Of a stretch of 33,833 bases of DNA, positions 2,782 to 25,349 are shown piece after piece (within the stretch, counting starts at the first letter, position 1; each line of letters begins with the position of its first letter). The notes under the pieces were generated by a model, which had not been told where the DNA came from, did not search any database, and saw only the letters and a program-made list of their open reading frames with translations. The stretch lies in contig JAFLRW010000003.1 in assembly GCA_022511285.1 (NCBI GenBank), positions 1 through 33,833 of the forward strand, read 5' to 3'. The stretch comes from Duncaniella sp. GTDB lineage: Bacteria > Bacteroidota > Bacteroidia > Bacteroidales > Muribaculaceae. The position numbers and the translations under genes were made by a program.

Positions 2782-4173
2782 TCAGAATTCTGCCTTGCCC
2801 GGTGTGCGCGGGAAGGGGATTACGTCGCGGATGTTTGTCATACCGGTGACAAAGAGCACCAGACGCTCAAATCCGAGACCAAAACCTGAGTGAGGCACGG
2901 TGCCGAAACGGCGGGTGTCGAGATACCACCACATATCTTTCATGGGGATATGCAGCTCTTCGATGCGTGTGAGCAGTTTATCATAGTCAGCCTCGCGCTC
3001 CGAGCCTCCTATTATCTCTCCGATATGTGGGAATAGCACATCCATAGCGCGGACGGTCTTGCCGTCCTCGTTCTGCTTCATATAGAATGCCTTGATTTCC
3101 TTGGGATAGTCGGTGAGGATTACAGGCTTCTTGAAATGCTCCTCCACAAGATAACGCTCATGCTCGCTCTGGAGGTCGGTGCCCCAGTGGACGGGGAACT
3201 CAAATTTCTTGCCCGAAGCTTCAAGGATTTTCACACCCTCGCCGTAGGGGAGGCGCACGAAGTCATTCTCTACCACAAACTTAAGACGCTCGGTCAGCCC
3301 TTTGTCAAAACGCTCTTCGAGGAATTTGATATCGTCTTCACAGTTCTCGAGAGCGTAGGTGATACAGTATTTCAGAAATTCCTCTGCGAGGTCCATATTG
3401 TCTGTGATGTCATAGAATGCCATTTCGGGTTCTATCATCCAGAACTCTGAGAGGTGGCGCGGAGTGTTGGAGTTTTCAGCGCGGAATGTGGGACCAAATG
3501 TGTAAATCTGCCCTAAGGCCGTGGCTCCGAGCTCTCCTTCAAGCTGGCCGGATACGGTCAGTGAGGTGTGTTTCCCAAAGAAGTCTTTTGAGTAGTCTGT
3601 TTTTCCCTCTTCAGTCTTGGGGAGGTTGTCGAGGTCAAGTGTCGTGACCTGGAACATTGCTCCGGCACCTTCGGCGTCAGAGGCTGTGATGAGGGGAGTG
3701 TGGAGGTAATAGAACCCTCTCTCGTTGAAAAACTTGTGGATGGCAAATGCCAGTGCGCTACGCACTCTGAGCACAGCCCCGAAGAAGTTTGAACGCGGAC
3801 GAAGATGTGCTATCTCGCGCATGTATTCAAGCGTGTGTCCCTTCTTCTGCAGGGGGTATGTTGCGGGGTCGGCGGTGCCATACAGTTCAAGGGTGTCGGC
3901 CTGTATTTCACAGCTCTGGCCCTTGCCCATTGACTCCACCAATTTGCCTGTGACACGGATGCTTGAGCCGGTGGTGACCGGTTTTAGTTCTTCATCCGTG
4001 AATTTGGTCATATCGAGCACCACTTGGATGTTGTTGATAGTGGAGCCGTCGTTGAGCTGTATGAACTGCACATGCTTGTTTCCGCGGCGAGTGCGCACCC
4101 AGCCTTTAGCTTCTACTACGGTGCCTATAAGGCTCGGCGTGGTGAGCAGATTCTTTATGCTTGTTCGTTTCAT
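2782..4173 (-). CDS. asnS: Asparagine--tRNA ligase
   Basis: 463-aa ORF; class II aaRS features ([60 protein letters not shown]) and an N-terminal OB fold. Confidence 0.97.
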
Positions 4174-21882: not shown

Positions 21883-23196
21883 TTATTTATAGCTTATCCA
21901 GCGTATAATCTCCTTGATATTTGGCTTTTTGCCATACATGAATATGCCTATACGATATATCTTGCCTGCCATCCACACCATTCCGAGGAAGCTGACTATT
22001 AGCAATCCAATTGACAAGGCTATCTCCCAGCCGGGAATGCCGGCGGGAATCCTCGCCACCATCACCATCGGAGCGGTCAGAGGGAAGAGGGACGACCAGA
22101 ATGCAAGTGGCCCCATAGGGTCGGCAGCGGCCACCATAGCGAAAATCAAGCCGAATATGATCGGGAATATGGCAAACGAGGATAGCTGGGATGCGTCCTG
22201 GACATTGTCGACAGTCGAGCCCACGGCGGCAAAGATTGACGAATAAAGCAGGAAGCCGAGCACCAAGAATAATGTGAGCAGAGCAGCAAGGCCGATTACT
22301 TCGCCTACATTGGTGAGCGACGCCATAGCCTGGATCAGTTCGATAGAGTCCTGGTGTCCGATGCTGTCGCTATTCCCCATCTGCACGGCTGCAATATCGC
22401 TCATCACATCGTCGGGCAGCAGAGCCGGCAGTATGAACCCCGACATTACAGATAGGAGCACTCCCCACAAAAGCATCTGTGTCACAGCCACCAAAGCTAC
22501 ACCTATGATTTTTCCAAGCATAAGTTGGGCGGGCTTTACAGATGTGACCACCACTTCGAGCACACGATTACTTTTCTCCTCGATGATTGACGTCATCACC
22601 ATCTGTCCGTAAATCAGGAGGAACATATAGAGGATAAATGTCAATCCGATACCTAATCCGTAGCTTAGCTCAGAGGAGAGTGCCTCACTATCCCCCTTGT
22701 CAGTGCGCAATGTGCTGATGGTGACATCGCTTTTCACCTCGTCCATTATCTTGTCAAGGTTGTCGATGTCATATCCTTTAAGCCTTTCGGTCTCTACAAT
22801 TTTGTTGATTTGTCCGGTGATAGCGCTTTCTACAGCCAGAGGCACCGGGCCGTTGCTCAACAATTTAAGTTGTCCCCGGCGAGATTCCAGTATTCCGGAA
22901 GGGATTACGAGCACAGCCCCTTCGTCTTGGATCTGCATCGCGGAGTCGACTGTCACATCAGGAGTGGCAGGGCGAAATTTAACTTCGGGCGTGTCTGTCA
23001 GGCGTGTGGCCACAGAGCCGCTGTTGTCCACTACAAGCACAGTGGTCTCCGAGCCGTCCATAAACACCATCATCAGCCCTGGAAGCGCCATTAAAAGAAG
23101 CATCAGCAATGGCATCAGGATTGTAGTGATGATAAAGCTCTTCTTCTTGACGCGCTCCATGTATTCGCGTTCGATTACTATTCCTATTTTTGACAT
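21883..23196 (-). CDS. ABC-2 type transporter permease (NatB/YhaP-like)
   Basis: 437 aa; N-terminal TM then large extracytoplasmic loop; EEKSNRVLEVVVTSVKPAQLMLGKIIGVALVAVTQMLLW signature; several TM segments. Confidence 0.9.
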   Translation of the reverse strand: MSKIGIVIEREYMERVKKKSFIITTILMPLLMLLLMALPGLMMVFMDGSETTVLVVDNSGSVATRLTDTPEVKFRPATPDVTVDSAMQIQDEGAVLVIPSGILESRRGQLKLLSNGPVPLAVESAITGQINKIVETERLKGYDIDNLDKIMDEVKSDVTISTLRTDKGDSEALSSELSYGLGIGLTFILYMFLLIYGQMVMTSIIEEKSNRVLEVVVTSVKPAQLMLGKIIGVALVAVTQMLLWGVLLSVMSGFILPALLPDDVMSDIAAVQMGNSDSIGHQDSIELIQAMASLTNVGEVIGLAALLTLFLVLGFLLYSSIFAAVGSTVDNVQDASQLSSFAIFPIIFGLIFAMVAAADPMGPLAFWSSLFPLTAPMVMVARIPAGIPGWEIALSIGLLIVSFLGMVWMAGKIYRIGIFMYGKKPNIKEIIRWISYK

Positions 23197-23219: not shown

Positions 23220-24152
23220 TTATGATATTGCTAAATCATCCTTCACGGCTCGGATGAAAATCTCGTTCATTGAGGCTATACTCTCGTTAAATCCTTTCAG
23301 AGCCACGGTGTCGTTGGCTATGGCGATGACATCGCGCAGCTCAACGCCGTCATTGACACGCAGCGAAAGGCGTGTGTGACCTTGTGCGTCAGGGGTGGGG
23401 AGTGTAAAATCGCCGGCCACGGGGAGCAGTCGTTCCATCAGAGCTTGATGGTCGCCCTCAAATGTGATATCGTATCTCCCGCCGAAGTATCTGCGCCGCA
23501 GCTCATCGACATTGCCACTGAGTATGTTGCGGCTGTTGTTGATGAGAGTGATATTGTCGCATATCTCCTCAACGGAGGCCATATTGTGAGTGGAGAATAT
23601 CACGGTGGCACCTTCGTCTTTGAGTTTGATAATCTCCTCTTTGAGCAAGTTGGCGTTGATAGGGTCAAACCCCGAGAACGGTTCGTCAAAGATGAGCAAT
23701 CGCGGCCGGTGGAGCACTGTCACAATAAACTGCACTTTCTGAGCCATACCCTTGGATAACTCTTCCACCTTTTTATCCCACCACGAGAGGATGTCGAATT
23801 TCTCAAACCATCTTCTGAGGCTGCTTTGGGCTTCAGATTTGGAGAGTCCTTTTAGACGGGCGAAAAACAGTGCCTGCTCACCCACCTTCATTTTCTTATA
23901 CAGTCCGCGTTCTTCCGGCAGATAGCCTATCTTTTCCACATCCTCTTGCGTGAGGATATGTCCGTCAAACAACACCCGTCCCGAGTCAGGGGCGGTGATA
24001 TGGTTGATGATGCGTATCAATGTGGTTTTGCCGGCGCCATTCGGGCCCAACAGACCATACACCTGCCCCTCGGGAATGGTAAGGCTCACATCATCGAGAG
24101 CCTTGTGGGAGGCGTAGGTCTTTGTTACGTTTTCTACTTCCAGTATATTCAT
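23220..24152 (-). CDS. ABC transporter ATP-binding protein (NatA-like)
   Basis: Walker A GLLGPNGAGKTTLIRI, signature ELSKGMAQKVQFIVTVLHRPRLLIFDEPFSGFDP. Start set at 24152 (MNILEVENVTKTYASHKALDDV), because the longer 24200 start would begin at or before the predicted transcription start. Confidence 0.93.
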   Translation of the reverse strand: MNILEVENVTKTYASHKALDDVSLTIPEGQVYGLLGPNGAGKTTLIRIINHITAPDSGRVLFDGHILTQEDVEKIGYLPEERGLYKKMKVGEQALFFARLKGLSKSEAQSSLRRWFEKFDILSWWDKKVEELSKGMAQKVQFIVTVLHRPRLLIFDEPFSGFDPINANLLKEEIIKLKDEGATVIFSTHNMASVEEICDNITLINNSRNILSGNVDELRRRYFGGRYDITFEGDHQALMERLLPVAGDFTLPTPDAQGHTRLSLRVNDGVELRDVIAIANDTVALKGFNESIASMNEIFIRAVKDDLAIS

Positions 24153-24203
24153 TTTTGCGCTGATAGATACAGTAGTGTATGTGTGTAAGGTATGCGTCAT
24201 GTA

Positions 24204-24233
24204 ATTAGTCGCAAAATTACGATAAAAGTTTCA
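24204..24233 (-). promoter_or_regulatory. Putative ECF-type promoter toward the ABC transporter
   Basis: Minus strand TGAAAC (24233-24228), N16, CGACTAAT (24211-24204). A housekeeping-like TAATTTTG (24219-24212) lies inside the spacer. Confidence 0.6.
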
Positions 24234-24240
24234 TCGGCGT

Positions 24241-24270
24241 TGAAACTTTTTCTTAATCTCTGCGTCTAAT
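24241..24270 (+). promoter_or_regulatory. Putative autoregulatory ECF-type promoter of the sigma factor operon
   Basis: TGAAAC (24241-24246), N16, CGTCTAAT (24263-24270), about 25 nt upstream of the ECF sigma ATG. Confidence 0.65.
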
Positions 24271-24294: not shown

Positions 24295-24798
24295 ATGTCA
24301 ACTCCATCTGACAAGGAGCGGCTTTTCGCCGAGATTATCGACTCCAATCGCCGTCTCCTTTATAAAATATGTTATATGTATGCCACTGACGGCCATCACT
24401 TCAATGACCTATATCAAGAAGTGCTGGCCAATGTTTGGCAGGGGCTTGACGCATATCGTGGCGCGGCCGCGATTTCCACGTGGCTTTATAGAATGGCCAT
24501 CAACACCTGTGTTACATATTTCCGCCGCAATGTGCGCCACACTGAGGGACGCTTGCCCTTAGAGTCGGTGATTAATATGGAGGGGGATGCTGACAATTCA
24601 GAACGACTGATGCAACTGCGCACCATGTATAAGTTGATTTCCGGCCTCTCCGGAATGGATAAGGCGCTGATAATGATGTGGCTCGATGAAAAGAGTTATG
24701 ATGAGATTGCAGAGCTCTCAGGACTCACTCGCAACAATGTGGCCACTCGCCTGCGCCGTATAAAACTTAAACTAATTGAAAGCAACAAGGAAATATGA
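24295..24798 (+). CDS. ECF-type RNA polymerase sigma factor
   Basis: 167 aa; sigma region 2 LLYKICYMYATDGHHFNDLYQEVLANVWQGLDAYRGAAAISTWLYRMAINTCVTYFRR and region 4 KALIMMWLDEKSYDEIAELSGLTRNNVATRLRRIKLKL. Confidence 0.93.
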   Translation: MSTPSDKERLFAEIIDSNRRLLYKICYMYATDGHHFNDLYQEVLANVWQGLDAYRGAAAISTWLYRMAINTCVTYFRRNVRHTEGRLPLESVINMEGDADNSERLMQLRTMYKLISGLSGMDKALIMMWLDEKSYDEIAELSGLTRNNVATRLRRIKLKLIESNKEI

Positions 24799-25349
24799 AT
24801 ATAGATGAGCTGAAAGCACAATGGCGGTCAATTGATGTCAACCCCGACACTGCAGGAGCCCGTGAGGTGGAGCAGCGCGTGGCACGCAGACGCGTGCAAT
24901 CGCTCGGAGGAAAATATTATTCGTTGTGTATGCGAATGGTGGCTGTGTCATGCCTCGGTATTTTGGCCGTCAGTTCATTAGCCAAGTCGGCGCCACTTTT
25001 GGCTGGTCTCTCCATCGCTTTTTTTGTTCTGATGGGGGGCTTGCAGCTTTGGCAAGCGTTCTATGTCAAGGAATTGGACTTTGGCTCTCTTTCAGTCCGC
25101 GAAGCGATAATGAAGGTGTGCCGCCTTGAAAGGATGAGATATGCCAAACGTGCCGTCGGGATGATTCTCGCAGTTCCGCTATTGGTTTATATGCTTGCCA
25201 CGTTTGCCAATCTCTTTGGCCGATATATGCTCTTTGGTGGGCTTGCCGGTCTGATTGTGGGGATTTTCTGTGCGTTGATTGTCAATCATAATGCAAATAG
25301 TATACTCCGCCGGATGAAGGAACAGCTCGGAGAAGAGGCTGATATCTGA
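24795..25349 (+). CDS. Membrane protein co-transcribed with the ECF sigma; candidate anti-sigma/sensor
   Basis: 184 aa; ATGA overlap with the sigma gene; short cytoplasmic N-terminus (MNIDELKAQWRSID) and about four hydrophobic segments. Confidence 0.75.
   Translation: MNIDELKAQWRSIDVNPDTAGAREVEQRVARRRVQSLGGKYYSLCMRMVAVSCLGILAVSSLAKSAPLLAGLSIAFFVLMGGLQLWQAFYVKELDFGSLSVREAIMKVCRLERMRYAKRAVGMILAVPLLVYMLATFANLFGRYMLFGGLAGLIVGIFCALIVNHNANSILRRMKEQLGEEADI

Follow-up and report, generated by a model that had tools for sequence, protein, structure and literature searches.

In the 33,833-nt stretch of Duncaniella sp. DNA analysed here (the window), a 142-bp region separates the gene of an ECF sigma factor from a divergently oriented ABC exporter operon, and it very probably functions as a bidirectional ECF promoter. 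From it, the adjacent sigma factor would regulate its own operon and drive the exporter, and its targets elsewhere in the genome would include a MacAB-type efflux operon and the gene of an M16 peptidase, with feedback through a membrane partner protein and an overlapping basal promoter on the exporter side.

Results

Two outward-facing half-promoters between the sigma factor and exporter genes

Positions 24224-24250 form a perfect 10-bp inverted repeat, composed of AAAAGTTTCA (24224-24233), a 7-bp gap TCGGCGT (24234-24240) and TGAAACTTTT (24241-24250); an inverted repeat of this length appeared in only 1 of 1000 dinucleotide shuffles of the intergenic region. Its arms are two outward-reading -35 boxes. 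On the plus side TGAAAC (24241-24246) is followed, after N16, by CGTCTAAT (24263-24270), while on the minus side TGAAAC (24233-24228) is followed at the same distance by CGACTAAT (24211-24204), and the outward consensus of both sides is TGAAACTTTT-N11-GCG(T/A)CTAA. The predicted sigma-operon promoter extends over 24241-24269 on the plus strand (-35 TGAAACTTTT, -10 GCGTCTAA at 24262-24269, expected start at ~24277) and has the highest motif score of the window; the predicted exporter promoter lies at 24205-24233 on the minus strand (-35 TGAAACTTTT at 24233-24224, -10 GCGACTAA at 24212-24205, expected start at ~24197). Hence, the letters on which the first-pass annotation had relied, i.e., the 10-bp inverted repeat, the outward TGAAAC, the N16 spacers and the CG(T/A)CTAAT boxes, were all confirmed on re-reading. 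A gapped pattern search of the window returned the two half-promoters as its sole matches (0 expected from 100 shuffles), and no further exact match exists in the 1.99-Mb draft genome. A search for E. coli-type sigma-70 promoters gave chance-level matches only.

The gene at 24295-24798 (plus strand) encodes a 167-aa protein with Sigma70_r2 (residues 15-81) and Sigma70_r4_2 (122-160) only, that is, the ECF (group IV) architecture of regions 2 and 4 without region 1.1 or 3. It scores above the cut-off of TIGR02937, no NCBIfam equivalog reaches its own cut-off, and it is preceded by what appears to be an autoregulatory promoter of ECF type, with an AAC-type -35 and a CGTC-type -10. On the minus strand, a 310-aa ABC ATPase (23220-24152; ABC_tran and DrrA1-3_C) and a 437-aa NatB-like ABC-2 permease (21883-23196; ABC2_membrane_3), which follows the ATPase in orthologous loci, form one operon with the domains of a NatAB/DrrAB-like ABC-2 exporter, in agreement with the NatA/NatB-like exporter suggested at first pass. 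The ATPase is a single-copy orthologue in 137 of 150 genomes of the family. The intergenic length of 142 bp presumes that it starts at the ATG at 24152; a longer reading frame would begin at 24200, level with the expected transcription start (~24197) or upstream of it, and hence the start at 24152 is likelier. Although a DUF349 gene lies downstream in the window, none was seen beside the sigma gene in other loci, and we rejected the gene as an operon member.

Conservation of both promoters across the genus

Among 27 genomes of Duncaniella-like Muribaculaceae, 24 carry an orthologue of the sigma factor, and 18 distinct loci with ABC genes divergent to the sigma gene and its downstream membrane protein gene were each tested with matrices built without the locus in question. 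Both promoters are kept in all 18, and all 36 half-sites exceed the 99th percentile of shuffled intergenic regions. The paired boxes and their 16-nt spacing, whose presence in homologous loci the first-pass annotation had put forward as a check of its reading, were thus found throughout. In 17 of the 18 loci the two -35 boxes stand 6-8 bp apart, while the sequence of gap and spacers is scrambled and the intergenic length ranges from 88 to 358 bp; pairwise identity amounts to 78-92% in the boxes, 34-47% in the spacers and 37-40% in the flanks (15 nt below the -10). Given that the boxes are far more conserved than their surroundings, and that the gap is nearly fixed despite the varying intergenic length, both the boxes and their geometry are under selection. 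The sole long gap (34 bp, in locus L038) contains an A8T6 tract.

Shared operators are common between divergent genes, and the repeat, a perfect palindrome whose centre gap hardly varies, might instead serve a dimeric transcription factor as operator for both genes, the CGTC boxes being incidental. However, the -10 boxes vary no more than the repeat itself, with a spacer of N16 in 36 of 36 half-sites, and the adjacent gene encodes a sigma factor, with no transcription factor gene adjoining. Moreover, unlinked promoters of the same motif upstream of the MacB and M16 genes (see below) consist of a single -35/-10 pair, and a second arm (9/10 or better) was found in 0 of 23 MacB and 2 of 21 M16 promoters, as compared with 17 of 17 divergent loci. 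Since the same motif elsewhere does without a second arm, we regard an operator as highly improbable.

A primary-sigma box within the exporter-side promoter

Within the exporter-side spacer and abutting the ECF -10, TAATTTTG (24212-24219, minus strand) matches TAnnTTTG, the -7 box of the primary sigma factor of Bacteroidetes (PMC7366714). On the exporter side an exact TAnnTTTG stands against the ECF -10 in 6 of the 18 loci, and 5 of its 6 positions are matched in five more. The summed match there is 78, compared with 54 +/- 4 in shuffles, a value reached by 0 of 2000, whereas on the sigma side it is 50 compared with 45 +/- 4, showing no such excess. The simplest reading is that the embedded box probably serves as a basal primary-sigma promoter for the exporter. 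The first-pass annotation had described the two promoters as mirror images; both halves are indeed of ECF type, but the symmetry is incomplete because only the exporter side holds this additional box.

This one-sided enrichment at the -10 junction could also mean that the sigma side is the sole true ECF promoter and that the exporter owes most of its transcription to the primary sigma factor acting at the embedded TAnnTTTG. We consider this unlikely: the exporter-side ECF boxes are about as conserved as those on the sigma side and are missing where the sigma factor is absent, and TAnnTTTG occurs in only a third to half of the loci. Dual use of the exporter side is more likely than its exclusive use by the primary sigma factor.

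The exporter promoter accompanies the sigma factor

The motif lies upstream of nearly all homologues of the sigma factor, including most of those in other genera; one locus (L266) lacks it at the sigma start used. It also persists where the genes are rearranged. In two genomes (G171 and G178) the genes form a single operon in the order sigma, membrane partner, ATPase, permease, and in a third (G143) sigma, partner and ATPase do so; in these three a variant motif precedes the sigma gene wherever upstream DNA is present. Two further genomes (G074 and G197) carry the exporter and the sigma gene on separate contigs, and a copy of the promoter accompanies each of the two gene sets. Exporters of other genera do not adjoin the sigma gene, yet the motif is often found ~20-110 nt above their start.

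In 62 genomes outside the genus, we set the score of the promoter above the ATPase against the occurrence of a sigma homologue (>= 130 bits). The exporter promoter occurs in 32 of 39 genomes with a sigma homologue and in 1 of 23 without (Fisher p=9e-10, a value that kinship among the genomes makes optimistic); counted per genus, it occurs in 12 of 15 with the sigma factor and 0 of 11 without (p=5e-5), which is the safer value because the genomes are phylogenetically related and not independent. None of the 15 genomes without any match to the sigma factor has it. Within the genus, two members (G201 and G202) lack the sigma factor and its partner, and in both the motif is absent from the exporter, MacB and M16 genes; a search with the regulon pattern gave zero matches in either genome. 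There are exceptions: four genomes (G040, G024, G013 and G037) have a sigma homologue without the exporter motif, and one (G200) has the motif at MacB while the sigma factor was not found in its 79% complete assembly.

Could both promoters belong to another ECF sigma factor of the genome, the one encoded at 24295-24798 being merely one of its targets? Several ECF factors are encoded per genome and their specificities overlap, variant motifs precede the HtrA gene and another ECF gene, and G200 carries the MacB motif. Against this, the exporter promoter tracks this particular sigma factor across genera, G201 and G202 have lost the motif at exporter, MacB and M16 together with the sigma factor though other ECFs remain, and the -10 of the paralogous clade is a different one (GCACCTAA). 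Given the co-occurrence of promoter and sigma factor, we judge this very unlikely, although another ECF of overlapping specificity may serve some of the targets, above all HtrA, where the variant motif is present in the sigma-less G201. Since the paired promoters are conserved, the exporter promoter tracks the sigma factor, and the motif is lost where the sigma factor is lost, the earlier proposal that the adjacent sigma factor drives both sides is well supported at the level of sequence comparison.

The motif extends to a wider predicted regulon

In the 27 genus genomes the regulon pattern has ~74 matches, which fall almost exclusively at expected places, compared with 2 for the reversed pattern. 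The motif stands above a MacB-type ATPase gene in 23 of 25 genomes (0 on the reversed upstream strand) and above an M16 peptidase gene in 21 of 24 (2 on the reversed strand), and the window's own genome has one such site at each (contig C271, positions 425-453, for MacB; contig C9, positions 3049-3077, for M16). The MacB operon continues with a MacB_PCD/FtsX permease, a second similar permease and an HlyD-type adaptor. As these MacAB-type and M16 operons carry the same motif, the view of the locus as one self-contained module proved too narrow, and the pattern of motif occurrence points to a hub of a larger cell-envelope-defence regulon.

Other genes bear related motifs. DUF2807 (GIN domain) proteins, the family being confirmed on one of them, are preceded by TGTAACTATT/TTTT-...-CGTC(T/A)TA in five genus members (L285-L289) and are possibly members of the regulon. 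HtrA/DegP upstream regions (L178-L202) contain the variant TGTAACATTGCA-...-TTTTTGCCGTCTAA; it is weak in the window's genome (score 9.0) and present in the sigma-less G201, so that we did not retain HtrA as a regulon member, and this variant probably belongs to another ECF. A further ECF gene (L294:112-630, and L295) has TGTAATTTTT-...-TCGTCTTA within 3 nt upstream, possibly through cross-talk or through its own autoregulation. In two loci (L023 and L103; genomes G197 and G074), TGAAACTATT-...-CGTCTAA is followed 173-207 nt downstream by an RlmN-like gene, a position that may be due to chance or to an operon effect. The paralogous ECF clade, ~42% identical, is represented by three loci (L059, L060 and L061), two of which (L059 and L060) have a promoter of their own, TGTAACTTTT-N12-TGCACCTAA, with a different -10 box. 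A sigma factor and partner of Bacteroidales type also occur under the record name 'Clostridiales bacterium' (L067), likely a misnamed bin.

A four-helix partner protein

The second gene of the sigma operon (24795-25349, plus strand) has a 4-bp overlap with the sigma stop and encodes a 184-aa membrane protein with four hydrophobic helices and an N-terminal tail of ~40 residues (MNIDELKxxW). It adjoins the sigma gene in every genus orthologue checked and in 20 of 20 cases in other genera. Searches of Pfam and NCBIfam assigned it to no family, giving weak, inconsistent Pfam matches only, and found no known class I anti-sigma domain in it. Its structure model (pLDDT 84) comprises helices 3-12, 19-64, 67-92, 101-141 and 144-183, the first of them and the beginning of the second, from residue 19, lying ahead of the membrane with a pLDDT of 56-77; a fold search against the PDB gave no significant match (best E 0.24). 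The average for class I anti-sigma factors is 101 aa (PMC7406223), beside which the tail of the partner is short. Judging from gene order and topology, the partner probably acts as a membrane-bound anti-sigma factor whose cytosolic tail is short.

Discussion

In the model that we propose, TGAAACTTTT-N11-GCGTCTAA is very likely the sequence that the sigma factor encoded at 24295-24798 recognises on either side of the repeat. Once active, this factor would raise its own operon, i.e., itself and the membrane partner, together with the divergent ABC-2 exporter, while driving in trans at least the MacAB-type efflux operon and the M16 peptidase. The four-helix partner would hold the sigma factor at the inner membrane until a disturbance of the envelope frees it; the freed sigma factor would then turn on the exporters, the protease and more of the partner, giving positive and subsequently negative feedback. 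The overlapping primary-sigma promoter probably provides low-level transcription of the exporter.

More tentatively, and with rather less than even confidence, we speculate that the sigma factor and its MNIDELKxxW partner constitute an undescribed ECF/anti-sigma system spread through the whole family Muribaculaceae, that such short-tailed polytopic anti-sigma factors form a new class, that the 6-8 bp gap places two RNA polymerases in abutting positions where they influence each other, and that the built-in primary-sigma promoter ensures basal efflux before the feedback burst. The family of sigma factor and partner and their regulon appear undescribed in the literature searched, many subscription papers being outside its scope.

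A class I anti-sigma domain is encoded near only 6% of Bacteroidetes ECF sigma factors (PMC7406223). The locus offers a widespread pair of sigma factor and partner for which the promoter is defined, a regulon of two exporters and an M16 peptidase is predicted, and natural loss mutants exist; it belongs to the Muribaculaceae, a dominant gut family in which such regulation has hardly been described. Moreover, a reporter assay built on the promoter could at once address the signal and the role of the partner.

The promoter mechanism is of a known kind. In the alphaproteobacterial nepR-ecfG/phyR locus, an ECF operon and a divergent gene are likewise served by promoters of the same ECF factor (PMC8103513); EcfG, however, is controlled by the soluble NepR and PhyR, whereas here the partner is a membrane protein and the divergent genes encode an exporter. 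B. subtilis SigW/RsiW and E. coli RpoE/RseA share with our system a -35 of the same type, ATTGAAACCTTT for SigW and GGAACTT for RpoE (PMC8103513), as well as an autoregulated operon of sigma factor and partner and targets that include ABC exporters and envelope proteases; they differ from it in that the partner described here is a short-tailed four-helix protein without an anti-sigma Pfam match, and that a divergent ABC-2 exporter stands at the core of the targets. Closer in taxonomy, B. fragilis EcfO, whose motif is known (PMC7366714), and the BcpT-responsive pair of Phocaeicola also combine a Bacteroidales ECF with a co-encoded membrane protein, a role in envelope stress and a protective regulon (PMC9308784), but their anti-sigma factors are large, dual-membrane proteins with an outer-membrane beta-barrel, unlike the 184-aa partner with its four predicted inner-membrane helices. 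Finally, the SM6 promoters of Flavobacterium psychrophilum resemble those described here in having a Bacteroidetes CGT -10 of ECF type and an ECF-anti-sigma pair among their targets, which are, in contrast to those of our system, type IX secretion genes induced at low nutrient levels (PMC9723704).
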